A stretch of 64,000 nucleotides of DNA from Propionispora vibrioides (lineage in GTDB: Bacteria; Bacillota; Negativicutes; Propionisporales; Propionisporaceae). How positions within the stretch are numbered: the first letter of the stretch is position 1; each line of letters begins with the position of its first letter. The stretch is from the NCBI RefSeq assembly GCF_900110485.1, contig NZ_FODY01000010.1, positions 62,594 to 126,593 on the forward strand, in the 5' to 3' direction. Below, piece by piece: positions 1 to 58,707 of this stretch. A program made the translations under genes and the position numbers. Below the pieces are notes generated by a model that worked only from the letters and a program-made list of their open reading frames with translations, made no database searches and was not told where the DNA came from.

Positions 1-758
<758 letters not shown>

Positions 759-6893: not shown

Positions 6894-6973
6894 TAGTGCT
6901 CCGCCAACGCTGAAACTACTGTTTCTTCGCGGGCTTTTTTCGTAAAGTTTCGTTGTCGGCGGTTTACATAGAT

Positions 6974-7131
6974 AACCACTGATTAATTCACACTGCGCGT
7001 CCTGACGGATCTTTTTCCGCCTAGCTGCGTCAGCAAAACCTTGAAATAGGGGCCGCTATTCCTGCGGTTTTACTTCCTTGCCAGACGAAAAAATCTCTCG
7101 CCAAGCCGACAGGTTCATTTAATCAGTGGTT
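6974..7131 (-). repeat. Family-1 inverted-repeat element, copy A (MITE-like)
   Basis: 158 bp bounded by AACCACTGATTAA and TTTAATCAGTGGTT. Read on the reverse strand it shares blocks with copies at 10.88, 14.6 and 20.15 kb: TGGCGAGAGATTTTTT, CTGGCAAGGAAGTAAAACC, GGAAAAAGATCCG, GCGCAGTGTGAATTAATCAG. No coding potential. The 6894-7377 gap holds this copy, the short family-2 copy and the upstream region of the next gene. Confidence 0.8.
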
Positions 7132-7210
7132 ACCTAGGAGCGATAGGTGCGCTTTTTCTTACGAAAAATCCCCGCAAATTTAATTTGCACTTCGAAGCTG
7201 CGAAGCACGA

Positions 7211-7273
7211 GGACGTGCCTTTAAACTAACGGAATGATCCCTGGCGTGTTTCGGATAGTTTGAAGACACGCCC
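7211..7273 (+). repeat. Family-2 inverted-repeat element, short copy
   Basis: 63 bp. Begins GGACGTGCCTTTAAACTAAC, continues with GGAATGATCC, and ends TTTCGGATAGTTTGAAGACACGCCC-like; compared with the 180-bp copy at 15.5 kb the interior is missing. The ends form an imperfect inverted repeat of about 20 bp. Confidence 0.75.
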
Positions 7274-10801: not shown

Positions 10802-10879
10802 AATTCCCCTCCTAACAGGTAACTCTTATATGACTATTCAGCAGCATGAAAAATATGCATCCGAATGGCCGGCCAGGGG

Positions 10880-11010
10880 AATCGCTGATTTAATGAGCCT
10901 GCCAGCCTGGCGAGAGATTTTTTTGGCTGGCAAGGAAATAAAAGCGTAGGAAGCGGTTCCTTCGGAGTTAGTGGACCACTAGGCTGCGCAGTGTGAATAA
11001 ATCAGTGGTT
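10880..11010 (+). repeat. Family-1 inverted-repeat element, copy B
   Basis: 131 bp between AATCGCTGATTTAATGAG and GAATAAATCAGTGGTT. Shares CCTGGCGAGAGATTTTTT, GGCTGGCAAGGAAATAAAA and CTGCGCAGTGTGAATAAATC with the other copies; the central part is replaced. It lies in the 340-bp space between the divergent ycgR-like gene and the next exported protein; no other feature is seen there. Confidence 0.8.
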
Positions 11011-11141
11011 CTCAAGTGTATCTTCCTGGTGAAAAAAGGGTCTTTGCAAAATTTGGTGAATTACACCTATAACAGGCTAATCGGGCAGGGAAAAATGCGG
11101 CGCGGTGAGCATAAATAGGAATAGGCAAGGATGGTGTTTCC

Positions 11142-14581: not shown

Positions 14582-14603
14582 ATGAGACAGAATTTTTCCG
14601 GTC

Positions 14604-14846
14604 AACCGCCGGGTTGATGAGGCTGTTCGCCTGGCGGAGCTTTTGCTGGCGCAAAAAGAATCTTTTTCAGTGTATCAGGAGAACGGCGCCGGTTGCATTC
14701 AGGCAGGACTTGGCCCAAGCCAAGTCTTTTCTTATTTGGCAAGGATACAAAACATGGAGGATAGCAGCACTCTTGCGAGGTTTTGCTGGAGCAGTCGGGC
14801 GAAAAGAGGATCTGCCAGGACGGGCAGCGCGAATAAATCAGTGGTT
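14604..14846 (+). repeat. Family-1 inverted-repeat element, long divergent copy D
   Basis: 243 bp. The left part AACCGCCGGGTTGATGAGG...CGCCTGGCGG matches the family left end; the right part AGGTTTTGCTGGAGCAGTCG, AGGATCTGCCAGGACGGGC, GCGCGAATAAATCAGTGGTT matches the right half of copy A. The insert between them contains a 19-base sequence (14716-14734) that recurs at 58689-58707. The right end stops 5 bp before the tetR -35 box. It fills the gap 14582-14850. Confidence 0.7.
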
Positions 14847-14851
14847 TTTTA

Positions 14852-14880
14852 TTGACAGTTAGCAAAAATTATATGATAAT
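14852..14880 (+). promoter_or_regulatory. Sigma-A promoter of tetR
   Basis: TTGACA (14852-14857), 17-bp spacer, GATAAT (14875-14880). The expected transcription start lies inside the palindrome at 14883-14911, so binding there should block it. Confidence 0.7.
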
Positions 14881-14882
14881 AA

Positions 14883-14911
14883 ACACATACCGTCCGGTAG
14901 GTCGGTGTGTG
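14883..14911. promoter_or_regulatory. TetR operator 1 (autoregulation)
   Basis: Imperfect palindrome with core ACACATACCGTCCGGTAGGT followed by CGGTGTGT. It shares CACATACCG...GGTAGGT with operator 2 before the pump genes. Confidence 0.7.
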
Positions 14912-14924
14912 AGGAGACGATGCT

Positions 14925-15509
14925 GTGACAAAGGACAATATCATCCATGTAGCGCTGCGGTTATTTTTGCAGCGAGGCTACAAATATGTGTCTTTGGTAG
15001 ATGTGGCCGCTGAAGCGGGGATTACTAAAGGTGGTATCTATCACTACTTTTCCAGCAAGGAAGACCTGTTGTATACGGCGGTGCATTACTTATTTGATCG
15101 GATAGAAGCTAAGTACATTGATGTATTCAGCCGGGACGGCAGCTTGCAGCAGGCGCTCTATTCTATGCTGGTCGAGCGGGAGCTTGAGGTGTATGCCCGT
15201 GACTTGTTGGGTATGGAGCAGGGAGATTACCGGGAAAATCACGCTAGCTTTATTTTAGAAGTCATGAATCATTTCCCCAAAATGCAAGAGCGGATTGACC
15301 GCAGCCATATGACGGTTTGTAAGGCCATTGGAGCAAAACTGCAGGCCGCTATGGGACAGGGTGAAATTCGTCCCCAGACGGATACACATGCGCTGGCGGT
15401 CATGATTCTGGCCATGCTTAACGGGCAGATATCCCTGGGCGAAAAGCTGAACAGCCCGGAAATACGCAAATTGATGACAGAAAATCTGTGGCGTTTGATT
15501 TGTGCTTGA
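14925..15509 (+). CDS. TetR/AcrR-family regulator of the adjacent RND pump
   Basis: 194 aa. N-terminal TetR helix-turn-helix (residues ~5-50): NIIHVALRLFLQRGYKYVSL, VDVAAEAGITKGGIYHYFSSKEDLL. The C-terminal helical domain should bind the inducer, which is unknown. GTG start at 14925 is set by GAGGAGA 7 nt upstream. Matching palindromes before this gene (14883-14911) and before the pump operon (15733-15758) indicate that it represses both itself and the pump. Confidence 0.88.
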   Translation: MTKDNIIHVALRLFLQRGYKYVSLVDVAAEAGITKGGIYHYFSSKEDLLYTAVHYLFDRIEAKYIDVFSRDGSLQQALYSMLVERELEVYARDLLGMEQGDYRENHASFILEVMNHFPKMQERIDRSHMTVCKAIGAKLQAAMGQGEIRPQTDTHALAVMILAMLNGQISLGEKLNSPEIRKLMTENLWRLICA

Positions 15510-15515
15510 AAGAAC

Positions 15516-15695
15516 GGGCGTGTCTTCAAATTAACGGAATGATCCATGGCGAGTGATTTTTGGGTCAGACGAATTATACCCTAAAGGGCACGCGAAATTT
15601 TGCAGGAATAGCGAGTTCTATTTCAAAAAATTTTAAGGAAGTATGGCGCAAAAAGCACTGTCAGGGAGCGTTTCGGATAGTTTGAAGACACGCCC
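15516..15695 (+). repeat. Family-2 inverted-repeat element, full-length copy
   Basis: 180 bp bounded by GGGCGTGTCTTCAAA and its perfect complement TTTGAAGACACGCCC. Internal blocks GGAATGATCC, TGGCGAGTG, CTATTTCAAAAAA, AAGGAAGTATGGCGCAAAAA and GTTTCGGATAGT recur at 45.4 kb. It lies between tetR and the pump operator. Confidence 0.85.
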
Positions 15696-15732: not shown

Positions 15733-15758
15733 GCACATACCGACTGGTAGGTATGTGC
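15733..15758. promoter_or_regulatory. TetR operator 2 (RND pump)
   Basis: Palindrome with perfect 9-bp arms GCACATACC and GGTATGTGC around an 8-bp centre containing the shared CTGGTA core, 47-72 bp upstream of the pump's first gene. Confidence 0.75.
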
Positions 15759-15804
15759 GGCCGATCAGGTTAATTTCCATATAGAATACAAGGAGGCAGG
15801 CAAG

Positions 15805-20096: not shown

Positions 20097-20146
20097 TTTT
20101 ATACAAAGTTGGCATGTGTTTTTTGCCGGGCCAGTAGAATATAGGG

Positions 20147-20261
20147 AGCCGCTGATTTAATGAGACTGCCGGCATGACGAGAGATTTTTAGCGTCTGGCC
20201 AGGAAGTAAAACCGGGGGAAAAAGATCCGCCAGGCCGCGCAGTGTGAATTAATCAGAGTTT
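20147..20261 (+). repeat. Family-1 inverted-repeat element, copy C
   Basis: 115 bp from AGCCGCTGATTTAATGAG to GTGAATTAATCAGAGTTT. Shares GACGAGAGATTTTTA, CTGGCCAGGAAGTAAAACC, GGAAAAAGATCCGCCAGG and CGCGCAGTGTGAATTAATCA with copy A; it appears as copy A with the middle removed. Confidence 0.8.
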
Positions 20262-20305
20262 TATAACGTAGCAGCTGTAAAGATGCAAAACAGGAGGAGC
20301 CGGAA

Positions 20306-21010
20306 ATGATCATTCACTGCATGCGGGTTCGCTGGCTGTCTTTATTTTTGTGTGCCGGCATTGCCTTGCTGGTTTTGGCGGAGTTTGTTCCGTCCCGCGT
20401 TGTCCCCGTCAGACAGGTGGACACGATAAGCAAAGTTGTTGCGCTTACCTTTGACGATGGGCCCGACCCAGCCACCACGCAGGCGTTGCTGGAGGTATTA
20501 GCGAAAAAACAGGTAAAAGCCACTTTTTTTTTGTTGGGTTCCCAGGTGGAGACCTATCCTGAACTGGCCGCCAACATAACCAGCCAAGGCCATGAAATTG
20601 GCAGCCATAATTACAGTCATGCCTTTTTGAACCGGGTGAGCCTGGCGGAATACCTGGAGCAGGTAGGACGGGCGGAAACGGCCATCAGCAAGGTGACGCC
20701 AAAACCTGTTTTGTTTCGTCCTCCCGGTGGCGGCTATAACGACAAACTGCTAGAGGAACTCCAAAAGCGGGGATATACTACCGTTCTGTGGTCGATAGAT
20801 CCCCGGGACTGGGAAGGTAAAACGGCAGAAGCCACCACCGGACTTGTGGTAAAACAGACGAAACCGGGCAGTATTATCCTGCTGCACGAAGGAAGTTGCG
20901 CGCGGGCAACACCGGAAGCCGTCGGCCGCATTATTGAGCAACTGGCTGGTCAGGGTTATTCCTTCGTCACCGTAAGCGAACTGCTCAGCCTGAAAAAACA
21001 GACTGAATAA
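20306..21010 (+). CDS. Polysaccharide deacetylase (NodB domain, CE4)
   Basis: 234 aa. Signal/anchor segment at residues ~10-27, then a NodB homology domain: catalytic Asp-Asp in LTFDDGPDP, metal His pair in HEIGSHNYSHAFL, RPPGGGYN, IDPRDW, and the C-terminal ILLHEG. It removes N-acetyl groups from a wall or surface polysaccharide such as peptidoglycan; sporulating Firmicutes carry several such enzymes (PdaA/PdaB), so a spore cortex role is possible. AGGAGGAG precedes the ATG. It ends inside a bidirectional terminator shared with the next gene. Confidence 0.87.
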   Translation: MIIHCMRVRWLSLFLCAGIALLVLAEFVPSRVVPVRQVDTISKVVALTFDDGPDPATTQALLEVLAKKQVKATFFLLGSQVETYPELAANITSQGHEIGSHNYSHAFLNRVSLAEYLEQVGRAETAISKVTPKPVLFRPPGGGYNDKLLEELQKRGYTTVLWSIDPRDWEGKTAEATTGLVVKQTKPGSIILLHEGSCARATPEAVGRIIEQLAGQGYSFVTVSELLSLKKQTE

Positions 21011-21060
21011 TGGGCAGCAAAAGGGACGGCAAATTGCCGTCCCTTTTGCTGCCCATTATT
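21006..21060. terminator. Perfect 27-bp bidirectional terminator overlapping two stop codons
   Basis: Arms 21006-21032 and 21034-21060 are exact complements with one loop base. The deacetylase stop (21008-21010) and the DUF1540 stop (21056-21058) both lie in the arms. Confidence 0.85.
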
Positions 21061-26443: not shown

Positions 26444-27449
<1,006 letters not shown>

Positions 27450-27451
<2 letters not shown>

Positions 27452-27510
27452 TAAACAAATAAAACTGGCTTGCGACATTCGTAATCGCAAGCCAGTTTTA
27501 TTTGTTTATC
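27450..27510. terminator. Bidirectional terminator between galR and the kinase gene
   Basis: Perfect 26-bp arms (27450-27475, 27485-27510) with a 9-nt loop and A/T-rich outer parts giving T runs in both directions. Stop codons of both convergent genes touch the arms. Confidence 0.88.
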
Positions 27511-29281
27511 ATTCCAGCACCGGAAAGGCAATGAAAAAGGTAGTGCCGTCAGCCGTGCTGTGAATATCAATCGAGGCACGGTGTTTTTCGGCAATATGGT
27601 AGCAAACCGACAAGCCCAGTCCGGTTCCCTCTTCTTTGGTGGTAAGGAAGGGGGTGCCCAGGTTGTCCAGCACATACGGATCTATGCCGGTTCCCTGGTC
27701 TTGAATGGATAGCAGGACCTTTGTTTCAGCGGCGTACGTCCGGATGGTCAGGCAGCCCTTGACCGCCATGGCCTCCAGACCGTTTTTTACCAGGTTCAAG
27801 AGCAATTGACGTATTTCTTTTTCATTGCAAAGAATGTCGGGCACCGGCTCGGTGATAATTTCCAAATCGTGTCCCGATTGCAGTGCATCGGTTTGCAGCA
27901 AAGGCTGCAGACTGTGGAGTATTTGATTCAGATTGCCGCGCTGCAGCGTGACTGTCGGAGCCTTGGCCAGTGACAAATACTCCGTAATAATCTGATTGGC
28001 CCGGTCTAATTCGGAAATCATAGTGGCAAGCTGATCATGATACTGGTGGAAACAGTCCTTGCCGTGAAACATTTGCAGATAACCCCGGACGGTAGTCAGG
28101 GGATTGCGTACTTCGTGACCGATACTGGCGGCCATTTTACCGATAATATTGAGGATATCCAGCCGGGCGACCTGAAATTTCAGCTCCTTGATTTCCGTTA
28201 CATCAGTAAACGTTGTTAGAGCGCATTTGTGAAGGCCTAAGGTAATGATTTCGGCTGAAACTAGGACGGTAAGCGTCCGGGCTTCTTTTGTGGTAATTTG
28301 CAATTGATAGTTATGGATCTTTTTGCCTGCTTCCAGGCTTGTTTGCAGGAAGGTGGCTTTTTTCTTATCATACTGCAGGCCAATGTCGCGGGGCTGTTTG
28401 CCGATAATTTCGCCGTAAGGCAGATTGACGGCTTTTATAAAGCTTTCATTTACGTCAATAAAATTCCGGTTGGTTAAGGAGATGATCGCCATCATACTGG
28501 GATTTTTGCGAAAGGCCTTGCAAAATCTTTCTTCCAACTGCTTTTCCTTCGTTGTTTCATGGGCAATAATTAGCAGGCTTGTCACTGCTTGATTATCCCC
28601 GTGTTCCGGGCAGATTTTAAAATGAAAATAGCGGATAATTCCGCGGCTGTCACGGTAACGGCCTTCCAAGGTGGTCGCTTTGCCGGTACGAAAAATATCC
28701 AGCAACTGGTCCCGGCCGGATTCGTAATTTTCAAACTGGGAATGAAGTTCTGTCCAGGTTTTGCCCAAAAGGTCATCTACCGGTGTTTGGGCAAGGGGAC
28801 GATTCAGATAAACAAGACGGAGCTCACGGTCCAGACGGGCAACGACATAAGGGCAGCTCTCGACCAGTGTCTGGTAGTCCTGCCTGCTATGTTGCAGTTG
28901 AGCTTCCAGCCGTTTTTGCTCGGCTATTTTACGGAGCCGGATCATAACCGGAGCGGGAATGCCGGCATCTGGCAAGAGTTCGCAGCATATTTCGCAGGGA
29001 ATAAGAGCACCGTTTTTGTGGCTGAAGCTGTATTCTCCCTGGAAAGACCCGCCCGAATCCCGCTGAGCGAGAACGGCAAGCAGGGAAGCGTGGAGGCCGG
29101 CAGCCGGCGAACCGGCTGCCGGCCAGGATAATTCCTCCTGGGTGTAACCGAGTAAAGCGTAAATGGCCGGATTTGCATCTATAAGCTGTCCGGAGGGAGA
29201 CATTAGCAGAACTCCGTCCGGATAACGGTCAAATAACAATTTATAAAGCGGAATAGGAGTGAATTGGCTCTGTGGCTTCAT
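27509..29281 (-). CDS. Triple-PAS cytosolic histidine kinase, sporulation-kinase-like
   Basis: 590 aa, no membrane segment. PAS domains at ~12-115, ~130-240 and ~250-360, then HisKA with GHEVRNPLTTVRGYLQM (His near 388) and HATPase motifs LVKNGLEAM, DQGTGIDPYVL, GLGLSVCYHIAEKH. The HEVRNPLT-type box and PAS chain are typical of orphan Spo0A-directed kinases (KinA/KinE type) in spore formers. No response regulator is adjacent. Role in sporulation is inferred from architecture only; the PAS ligands are unknown. GAGGTGA precedes the ATG. Confidence 0.8.
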   Translation of the reverse strand: MKPQSQFTPIPLYKLLFDRYPDGVLLMSPSGQLIDANPAIYALLGYTQEELSWPAAGSPAAGLHASLLAVLAQRDSGGSFQGEYSFSHKNGALIPCEICCELLPDAGIPAPVMIRLRKIAEQKRLEAQLQHSRQDYQTLVESCPYVVARLDRELRLVYLNRPLAQTPVDDLLGKTWTELHSQFENYESGRDQLLDIFRTGKATTLEGRYRDSRGIIRYFHFKICPEHGDNQAVTSLLIIAHETTKEKQLEERFCKAFRKNPSMMAIISLTNRNFIDVNESFIKAVNLPYGEIIGKQPRDIGLQYDKKKATFLQTSLEAGKKIHNYQLQITTKEARTLTVLVSAEIITLGLHKCALTTFTDVTEIKELKFQVARLDILNIIGKMAASIGHEVRNPLTTVRGYLQMFHGKDCFHQYHDQLATMISELDRANQIITEYLSLAKAPTVTLQRGNLNQILHSLQPLLQTDALQSGHDLEIITEPVPDILCNEKEIRQLLLNLVKNGLEAMAVKGCLTIRTYAAETKVLLSIQDQGTGIDPYVLDNLGTPFLTTKEEGTGLGLSVCYHIAEKHRASIDIHSTADGTTFFIAFPVLE

Positions 29282-32112: not shown

Positions 32113-32247
32113 TTGGCAGGACAATTTCTTAACCGGAAAAAGGAATATGCTGACTATGTGAAGAACCTAACAAGTGAATTGACTGAGTGCAATATCAAGA
32201 CAATGGCAAGTGATCCGCCATCCTTGAAAGTGCAATTAATTTTGTGA
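32113..32247 (+). CDS. Possible 44-aa protein
   Basis: TTG start at 32113 with GGGAGG 11 nt upstream (long spacing); reads as an amphipathic, helix-prone peptide beginning LAGQFLNRKKEYADYV. A stop codon lies just upstream in frame. Composition looks protein-like but no family is known. The rest of 31914-32389 holds the hairpins above and no other gene. Confidence 0.3.
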   Translation: MAGQFLNRKKEYADYVKNLTSELTECNIKTMASDPPSLKVQLIL

Positions 32248-32389
32248 GATTTTTTTCTAAGACAAGGCGGTGGTGCGCTTGTCGGGGTATAGGAAAGTCG
32301 TCGAAAACGAAGACTTGCAAAAAAAGATCCGTAAAGTTTTTGTAGTTTCAGAGCTGGTGGCCCGCTCGCATGGCTAAGGAGGTTACCAT

Positions 32390-45433: not shown

Positions 45434-45594
45434 GGGCTTGTTTGTACTAGCCGAAACATCCCTGACGATGCTTTTGTGCCATACTTCGTTAACGTTTTTT
45501 GAAATAGAAGCCACTCACTATTTCAGAAAATGCTGCCTCGTTTGGCGCAAAAAGCACTCGCTATGGGTCATTCCGTCCATTTACAAACAATCCC
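45434..45594 (-). repeat. Family-2 inverted-repeat element, third copy
   Basis: 161 bp. Reverse strand shares ACGGAATGAcCCAT, GCGAGTGcTTTTT, CTATTTCAAAAAA, AACGAAGTATGGCaCAAAA and TGTTTCGGcTAGT with the 15.5 kb copy, but its ends read TTGTTTGTA/TACAAACAA in place of GTGTCTTCAAA/TTTGAAGACAC: both arms changed together and still pair. Lies between the hexokinase and gltA-like genes; nothing else seen there. Confidence 0.8.
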
Positions 45595-58641: not shown

Positions 58642-58688
58642 AAGTAAGAACGACTAAAGCTTCTGTCTTCGTCCTTAGGGACTCGACA

Positions 58689-58707
58689 CAAGCCAAGTCT
58701 TTTCTTA
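58689..58707 (+). repeat. 19-base repeat, copy 2
   Basis: CAAGCCAAGTCTTTTCTTA is identical to 14716-14734 inside family-1 copy D. Both lie in noncoding DNA. Confidence 0.6.

Follow-up and report, generated by a model that had tools for sequence, protein, structure and literature searches.

The window, a 64,000-nucleotide stretch of the Propionispora vibrioides genome, carries a hairpin element directly downstream of a TetR-like gene (14925–15509). TetR-type palindromes (ACATACCGNNNGGTAGGTNNGTG) are found upstream of this gene at 14880–14925 and again at 15735–15765, before the next gene, and the element is located between the regulator gene and the second palindrome. An array of a 9-bp unit (~40 copies or more) occupies the left edge of the window (1–504), inside an ORF starting at 28. 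Perfect 27-bp inverted repeats with loops of 1 and 9 bases, probably terminators, are located at gene ends (21006–21060 and 27449–27511). The only Rfam match in the window, rli30 (RF02908; 3163–3278, reverse strand, 47.5 bits), lies antisense to a predicted gene and is unrelated. Rfam contained nothing on the hairpin elements at the gathering threshold, and a permissive threshold returned two chance-level matches (E 1.1).

Inspection of the window confirmed the three related copies listed in the initial annotation as family 2, all at the positions given there (the type-I elements of Table 1). The full-length copy next to the TetR-like gene has ends pairing as GGGCGTGTCTTCAAA, perfect over 15 bp, and folds with an MFE of -74.6 vs -50.3 for the antisense strand. 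Its 5' arm contains an 18-bp, ATACCCTAAAGGGCACGC-like insert. The ends of the reversed copy pair as GGGMTTGTTTGTA with one mismatch (GGGATT.. opposite GGGCTT..). The short copy had been described as keeping both ends without the middle and this is the case, although its ends, GGACGTGCCTTTAAA against GGGCGTGTCTTCAAA, include three non-Watson-Crick pairs. The best match to the core model within the window is the reverse-strand type-II element. A longer, diverged relative of type II is located at 14590–14850, with a foreign middle containing a 29-bp stretch that is repeated at 58679–58707.

Table 1. Hairpin elements in the window and their parts. R1, covariance model derived from 46 full-length elements of the genome of the window; R2, covariance model of the core.
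Feature	Position	Strand	Support
Type-I hairpin element, full length 180 bp	15516..15695	+	R1 172.5 bits; core R2 42.7 bits
Left terminal arm, 18 bp, of the full-length copy	15516..15533	+	
Right terminal arm, 18 bp, partner of 15516–15533	15678..15695	+	
Conserved core (GATTTTT..GTCAGACGA .. GCAGGAATAGCGAGTTCTATTTC .. AAGGAAGTATGGCGCAAAAAGC)	15555..15656	+	Core model R2 and cross-family core covariation
Type-I hairpin element, TTGT/ACAA arm subtype, 161 bp	45434..45594	-	R1 118.7 bits; R2 60.9 bits
Type-I element cut down to two ends, 63 bp, core deleted	7211..7273	+	R1 47.6 bits
Type-II hairpin element ("family 1" of the window), ends TAGGTAACCACTGATTAA...	6969..7136	-	R1 89.4 bits; core 86.5 bits, E 4.3e-18
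Type-II element, 3' half rearranged, ends GGGAATCGCTGATTTAATGA / AATAAATCAGTGGTTC	10875..11015	+	83% repeat match to 7059–7134
Type-II element, internal deletion	20142..20262	+	R1 22.3 bits
Type-IV element, degenerate, ends CCGCCATCCTTGAAAGTGCAATTAA...	32215..32360	+	R1 24.0 bits; core 25.5 bits, E 0.0016

Three copies are insufficient to prove covariation, and the arms were therefore compared in 46 full-length copies from the same genome. Searches from two seeds revealed 47 distinct full-length copies there, R1 matched about 105 places in its 4.43 Mb (150 of 1865 candidates scored), and at least 48 copies of the same family are present in a sister species. The larger alignment does contain the paired substitutions that had been proposed from the window copies. 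Across the 18 outermost pairs, standard pairing is found in 92.0% of cells (84.4 ± 0.6% after shuffling), and 61 cells have changed on both sides where shuffling predicts 20.8. The covariation score of the ends is 0.293, compared with 0.157 ± 0.010 for shuffled arms and 0.03–0.09 when the partner arm was slid. As a guard against relatedness, each column was evolved independently on a tree made from the inner columns only; the total G of the ends is 241 and the maximum of 300 such null values is 53. Arm positions 5, 9, 11, 12, 13 and 16 each reach p 0.0033, the minimum attainable. The arm subtypes, matched within each copy, are CTTC/GAAG, TTTC/GAAA, TTGC/GCAA, TTGT/ACAA, TTGAAA/TTTCAA and CTGAGA/TYTTCAG. 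The covariation of the ends is thus real, above chance and above phylogeny.

The initial annotation overlooked that the whole hairpin co-varies, and not the ends alone, and that its families 1 and 2 are one element with different sets of ends. R1 matches family 1 over its full length. Hairpins also score on the reverse strand, and for this reason the kinship was based on plain sequence as well: a profile of family 2 detects family 1 by nhmmer (E 5.5e-11), and a 25-base stretch, GCAGGAATAGCGGCCCCTATTTCAA, is common to members of both families. Side-by-side reading showed one core combined with several unrelated end sets: type I GGGCGTGTTTTCAAAC, type II GGTAACCACTGATTAAATGA, type III GAACCTGTATTCAGTCATGG, type IV AGTGGTCTGTCTACATTG, and others.

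The whole element forms one long hairpin in which freely co-varying stems are separated by fixed internal loops (5'-C-AAGG-NA / NGACGCA-G-3', and also GCAGG/CAAG or CGAAG/CGAG). In 32 representatives of the core, clustered at about 82%, 11 of 15 variable pairs have p<0.01 under the tree-aware null, and the total G is 525 against a null maximum of 134. Counted on 31 representatives, 95.2% of cells are paired, with a covariation score of 0.539 vs 0.187 ± 0.013 shuffled and 0.07–0.14 slid. As in structured RNA families, the core shows covariation beyond phylogeny in a consensus fold. The alpha and beta subfamilies of a Selenomonadales genome (CAMHCS01, G247) are separated by 7–8 compensated double changes, mostly transversions. 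Separate copies (L227:1150+ and L277:4550-) carry a second small hairpin (TCGATAAGCAGGCGCTTGGCGCTTTAGCGCC...), in each case inserted at one and the same internal-loop position of the core.

The strand that folds can be read from the mismatches, since G.U and A.C mirror each other between strands and their ratio reveals the strand. The core cells include 75 G.U and 13 A.C. The core structure was obtained with RNAalifold, which favours G.U, and we therefore also made a strand-symmetric arm alignment; with 16 exemplars it gave 90 G.U and 34 A.C. On the family tree, about 39 changes are between Watson-Crick and G.U and about 10 involve A.C, and the sense strand is more stable than the antisense in all 16 exemplars. 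This excess of G.U between families points to RNA or to one DNA strand. Modelling has indicated that G.T pairs are weakly maintained in single-stranded DNA genomes and strongly maintained in RNA (PMC6993869), which makes RNA the likelier form. From this G.U preference, the folded strand is probably RNA, with a folded DNA strand as the less likely alternative.

R1 matches were found in 36 of 300 genomes of the same class as the window, representing 17 of 97 genera. A 22-base core pattern retrieved further matches in named assemblies of Selenomonadales, Schwartzia, Oscillospiraceae, one planctomycete and one deltaproteobacterium. When the matching regions were folded, many gave the same hairpin and others were exposed as chance. 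Matches in Pseudoxanthomonas, Grimontia, Aliiroseovarius, Methylococcaceae, Omnitrophota and Lentisphaeria look like chance or coding sequence, and were discounted because the core hairpin was not seen on folding. R2 identified 47 copies in the deltaproteobacterial assembly and nine in the planctomycete; in a sample of 398 genomes from the phylum of the window, it matched only 10 at E<=1e-6. Some of the assemblies are metagenome bins where single placements could be binning errors, but the presence of many copies over many contigs argues against this. The superfamily is also present in Clostridia-type Bacillota, and spans at least three bacterial phyla.

The deltaproteobacterial core copies (~47; for example L410, L414, L418 and L422) lack the long arms seen at the ends of Bacillota elements and have short basal arms, TAGNGCCTG/CAGGCNCTA, that themselves co-vary. 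In Planctomycetota CP070790 (L409, L413 and L425) the core forms part of a larger repeat of ~259 bp that contains additional small hairpins. A core copy was also observed in a viral contig (IMG/VR UViG_2901948472_000007; L397/L408), a possible route between hosts. No description of the superfamily was found in the open-access literature searched, a subset that makes such absence weak evidence. The group is very large and apparently unnamed.

Mobility is directly visible in CAMHCS01, the genome of an uncultured member of the Selenomonadales, where the end GGAAGCACTGATTAAGTCAA occurs 82 times forward and 84 times in reverse with at most three mismatches. Forty of about 80 copies were read. All but one are exactly 160 bp long (the exception is 159 bp), and they represent only 17 distinct sequences. 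Nearly all 40 are flanked on both sides by the same four bases, which are TTAA, CTAA, TTAG, TATA, TTTA, TCAA or TGTA. One copy is nested in another element, as GGAAACACTGATTAA|element|TTAAGTCAATTCG, and an uninterrupted sister reads GGAAACACTGATTAAGTCAATTCG. This sister represents the empty site, in which the TTAA is not yet doubled, so that the insertion itself can be seen. In the genome of the window the flanks are mostly CTA|...|TAG or TA|...|TA, the latter being found with type I. The elements are short and noncoding, with many copies of uniform length, terminal inverted repeats, target duplications and an empty site, as in MITEs. Their mobility is by transposition that duplicates a short target, 4 bp (TTAA/YTAR) in one genus. 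The 4-bp duplication also led us to reject integron attC sites and IS200/IS605-type hairpins.

About 15 genomes, complete ones among them, yielded no transposase gene with matching ends; insertion sequences are often lost at contig ends. End-pattern searches covered G000, G002, G247, G181, G294, G299, five Oscillospiraceae and four other genomes. Among the places listed, they returned pairs of MITE size or slightly longer and one 6-kb pair in genome G007. In this pair (L441; G007:C6:1891697-1897736) the two halves of one type-I element face each other 6 kb apart. Between them lie TetR and MFS genes and genes of chemotaxis type, but no transposase gene, and the pair was rejected as an autonomous transposon; a rearrangement appears to have split a single element, unless the whole is a composite unit. 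Where the termini of DDE_Tnp_1 genes were readable (the IS1182-like elements of G000 and G247) the ends are others, and the surroundings of the remaining DDE_Tnp_1 genes showed no matching inverted ends. IS5-type elements have G-initial ends such as GGAAGGTGCGAATAAG and 4-bp YTAR targets. The ends GGAAGCACTGATTAAGTC and the TTAA, CTAA and TTAG duplications in CAMHCS01 recall this type, which we take as a lead, but no IS5-type insertion sequence with matching ends was found here.

The fate of copies after insertion was followed in orthologues. The genome of the window and that of the sister species share 34 copies at the same place, and the test was limited to the 23 pairs that are at least 80% alike. 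In these pairs, 62 changes between Watson-Crick and G.U were found against 52 between Watson-Crick and A.C, with three pair-keeping double changes, about as many as independent change predicts by a rough estimate. Divergence is 7.0% in paired and 8.7% in unpaired columns. The ratio at the family level differs from that in the orthologues when both directions are counted (Fisher p 0.003), whereas with newly derived mismatches only (24 vs 10) the contrast is not significant (p 0.11).

The initial annotation had proposed that pairing of the ends is selected, either as an RNA hairpin or as matched transposition ends. Part of this holds, as the paired change is real and the elements have both transposed, with 4-bp target duplications, and an RNA-like core with cross-phylum covariation and an excess of G.U. 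However, covariation of the arms in multi-copy inverted repeats is by itself no proof that individual copies function, and the orthologue test, in which resident copies show no detectable maintenance of pairing, led us to reject selection on them as RNA. Orthologous copies decay without G.U bias or excess compensation, suggesting that pairing is selected in the lineages that amplify. The simplest reading is that pairing is tested at propagation and not afterwards.

We therefore favour, with a probability of roughly 0.6, the view that these are non-autonomous, hairpin MITE-like elements of ~160 bp, forming a large cross-phylum superfamily, in which propagation requires the folded strand or selects for it. 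Most likely as RNA, one of the two strands would have to fold for the element to propagate, or the propagating lineages would be filtered for folding. Whatever machinery propagates the element would recognise this fold, in RNA or in a single DNA strand. The ends would stay matched as they form the base of the hairpin and, at the same time, the two sites read by the same putative transposase in trans. After insertion, a copy would be free to decay.

A more specific possibility, which we hold only tentatively and consider rather doubtful, is that the core acts as RNA or as a single DNA strand in the mobility of the element itself, the fold being recognised instead of, or together with, the ends. 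If so, one core would serve with several unrelated end sets, and possibly several transposases, in different phyla, and the elements would represent a class of RNA-structure-dependent DNA transposons.

Recognition of both ends by a shared transposase would by itself also keep them matched, which counts against the favoured explanation. The elements could then be ordinary MITEs in which one transposase reads both ends, master-copy subfamilies have co-evolved with different transposases, and the hairpin has no role of its own. The real target duplications, the bursts of identical copies, the dominance of a few end subtypes and the neutral decay of resident copies all agree with this. Yet the core, for which an end-reading transposase should have no need, shows the strongest conservation and covariation across phyla, whereas the ends are completely different between types I–IV; nor does recognition of ends in duplex DNA predict an excess of G.U over A.C on one strand. 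We regard this explanation as unlikely.

Joint change could also arise by mutation without selection, if template switching during replication copies one arm onto the other (quasi-palindrome correction). Changes are sometimes clustered in one arm: L005, the matched member of an orthologous pair, differs from L173 at several of the 13 bases that begin the 5' arm. Many of the double changes need two transversions. Such correction should, however, hit resident copies too, and the orthologues show only the three compensated pairs. It predicts neither the fixed unpaired internal loops nor the G.U excess on one strand; untracted compensation in young copies and enrichment of G.U intermediates, also contrary to it, are partly seen. 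We consider it improbable.

A structured regulatory RNA maintained by the host (a leader, a small RNA or an RNase III processing site) and repeated by happenstance is very improbable: the covariation is RNA-like, for many copies a gene or ribosome-binding site is only tens of bases away, and known MITE transcripts are cut by RNase III or turned into small RNAs (PMC10969869), but the copies occur in both orientations relative to genes and are of equal length with target duplications, and a constraint that is lost once the copy is inserted, as the orthologue test indicates, already weakens it. A cis-regulatory leader had been suggested by AAGGAGG beside some 3' ends, and was ruled out by the near-balanced orientation (37 -/- vs 34 +/+ in genome G000; 57 vs 41 pooled, p 0.13).

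With selection in amplified lineages set apart from the neutral decay of copies in place, what was a vague "palindrome" becomes a testable question, whether a folded strand drives spread, and the covariance models R1 and R2 and the recent burst in CAMHCS01 are available as starting material. REP/BIME elements, mobilised by RAYT, are likewise high-copy intergenic palindromes recognised as hairpins. REPs are 20–40 bp long and, to our knowledge, have no target duplication, whereas the elements described here are ~160 bp with a 4-bp duplication. In the BOX elements of pneumococcus, a consensus RNA fold has been predicted from an alignment of multiple copies (PMC3049150). These are also repeated mobile elements with copies near genes on both strands, but BOX has a modular build and is found largely in pneumococcus and its near relatives (PMC3049150), and we saw no relation in sequence or structure. 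The elements also resemble hairpin-forming bacterial MITEs such as Correia/NEMIS, ERIC, RUP and QMITE2, which are <200 bp long, without genes, intergenic, with terminal inverted repeats and target duplication, and with predicted long stem-loop transcripts (PMC10969869). The same review of hairpin MITEs reports stable folding and RNase III cutting of some transcripts, and the term "compensat" is absent from it (PMC10969869). In contrast to these, the elements described here have a fixed-loop, co-varying core common to families with unrelated ends and present in several phyla, with compensation demonstrated statistically. MITE interiors are usually treated as filler, whereas here the interior is the conserved part, its stems compensated and its loops fixed across three or more phyla, and it is the ends that turn over. 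What distinguishes the superfamily from the known kinds is a structured core common to several end sets and several phyla.
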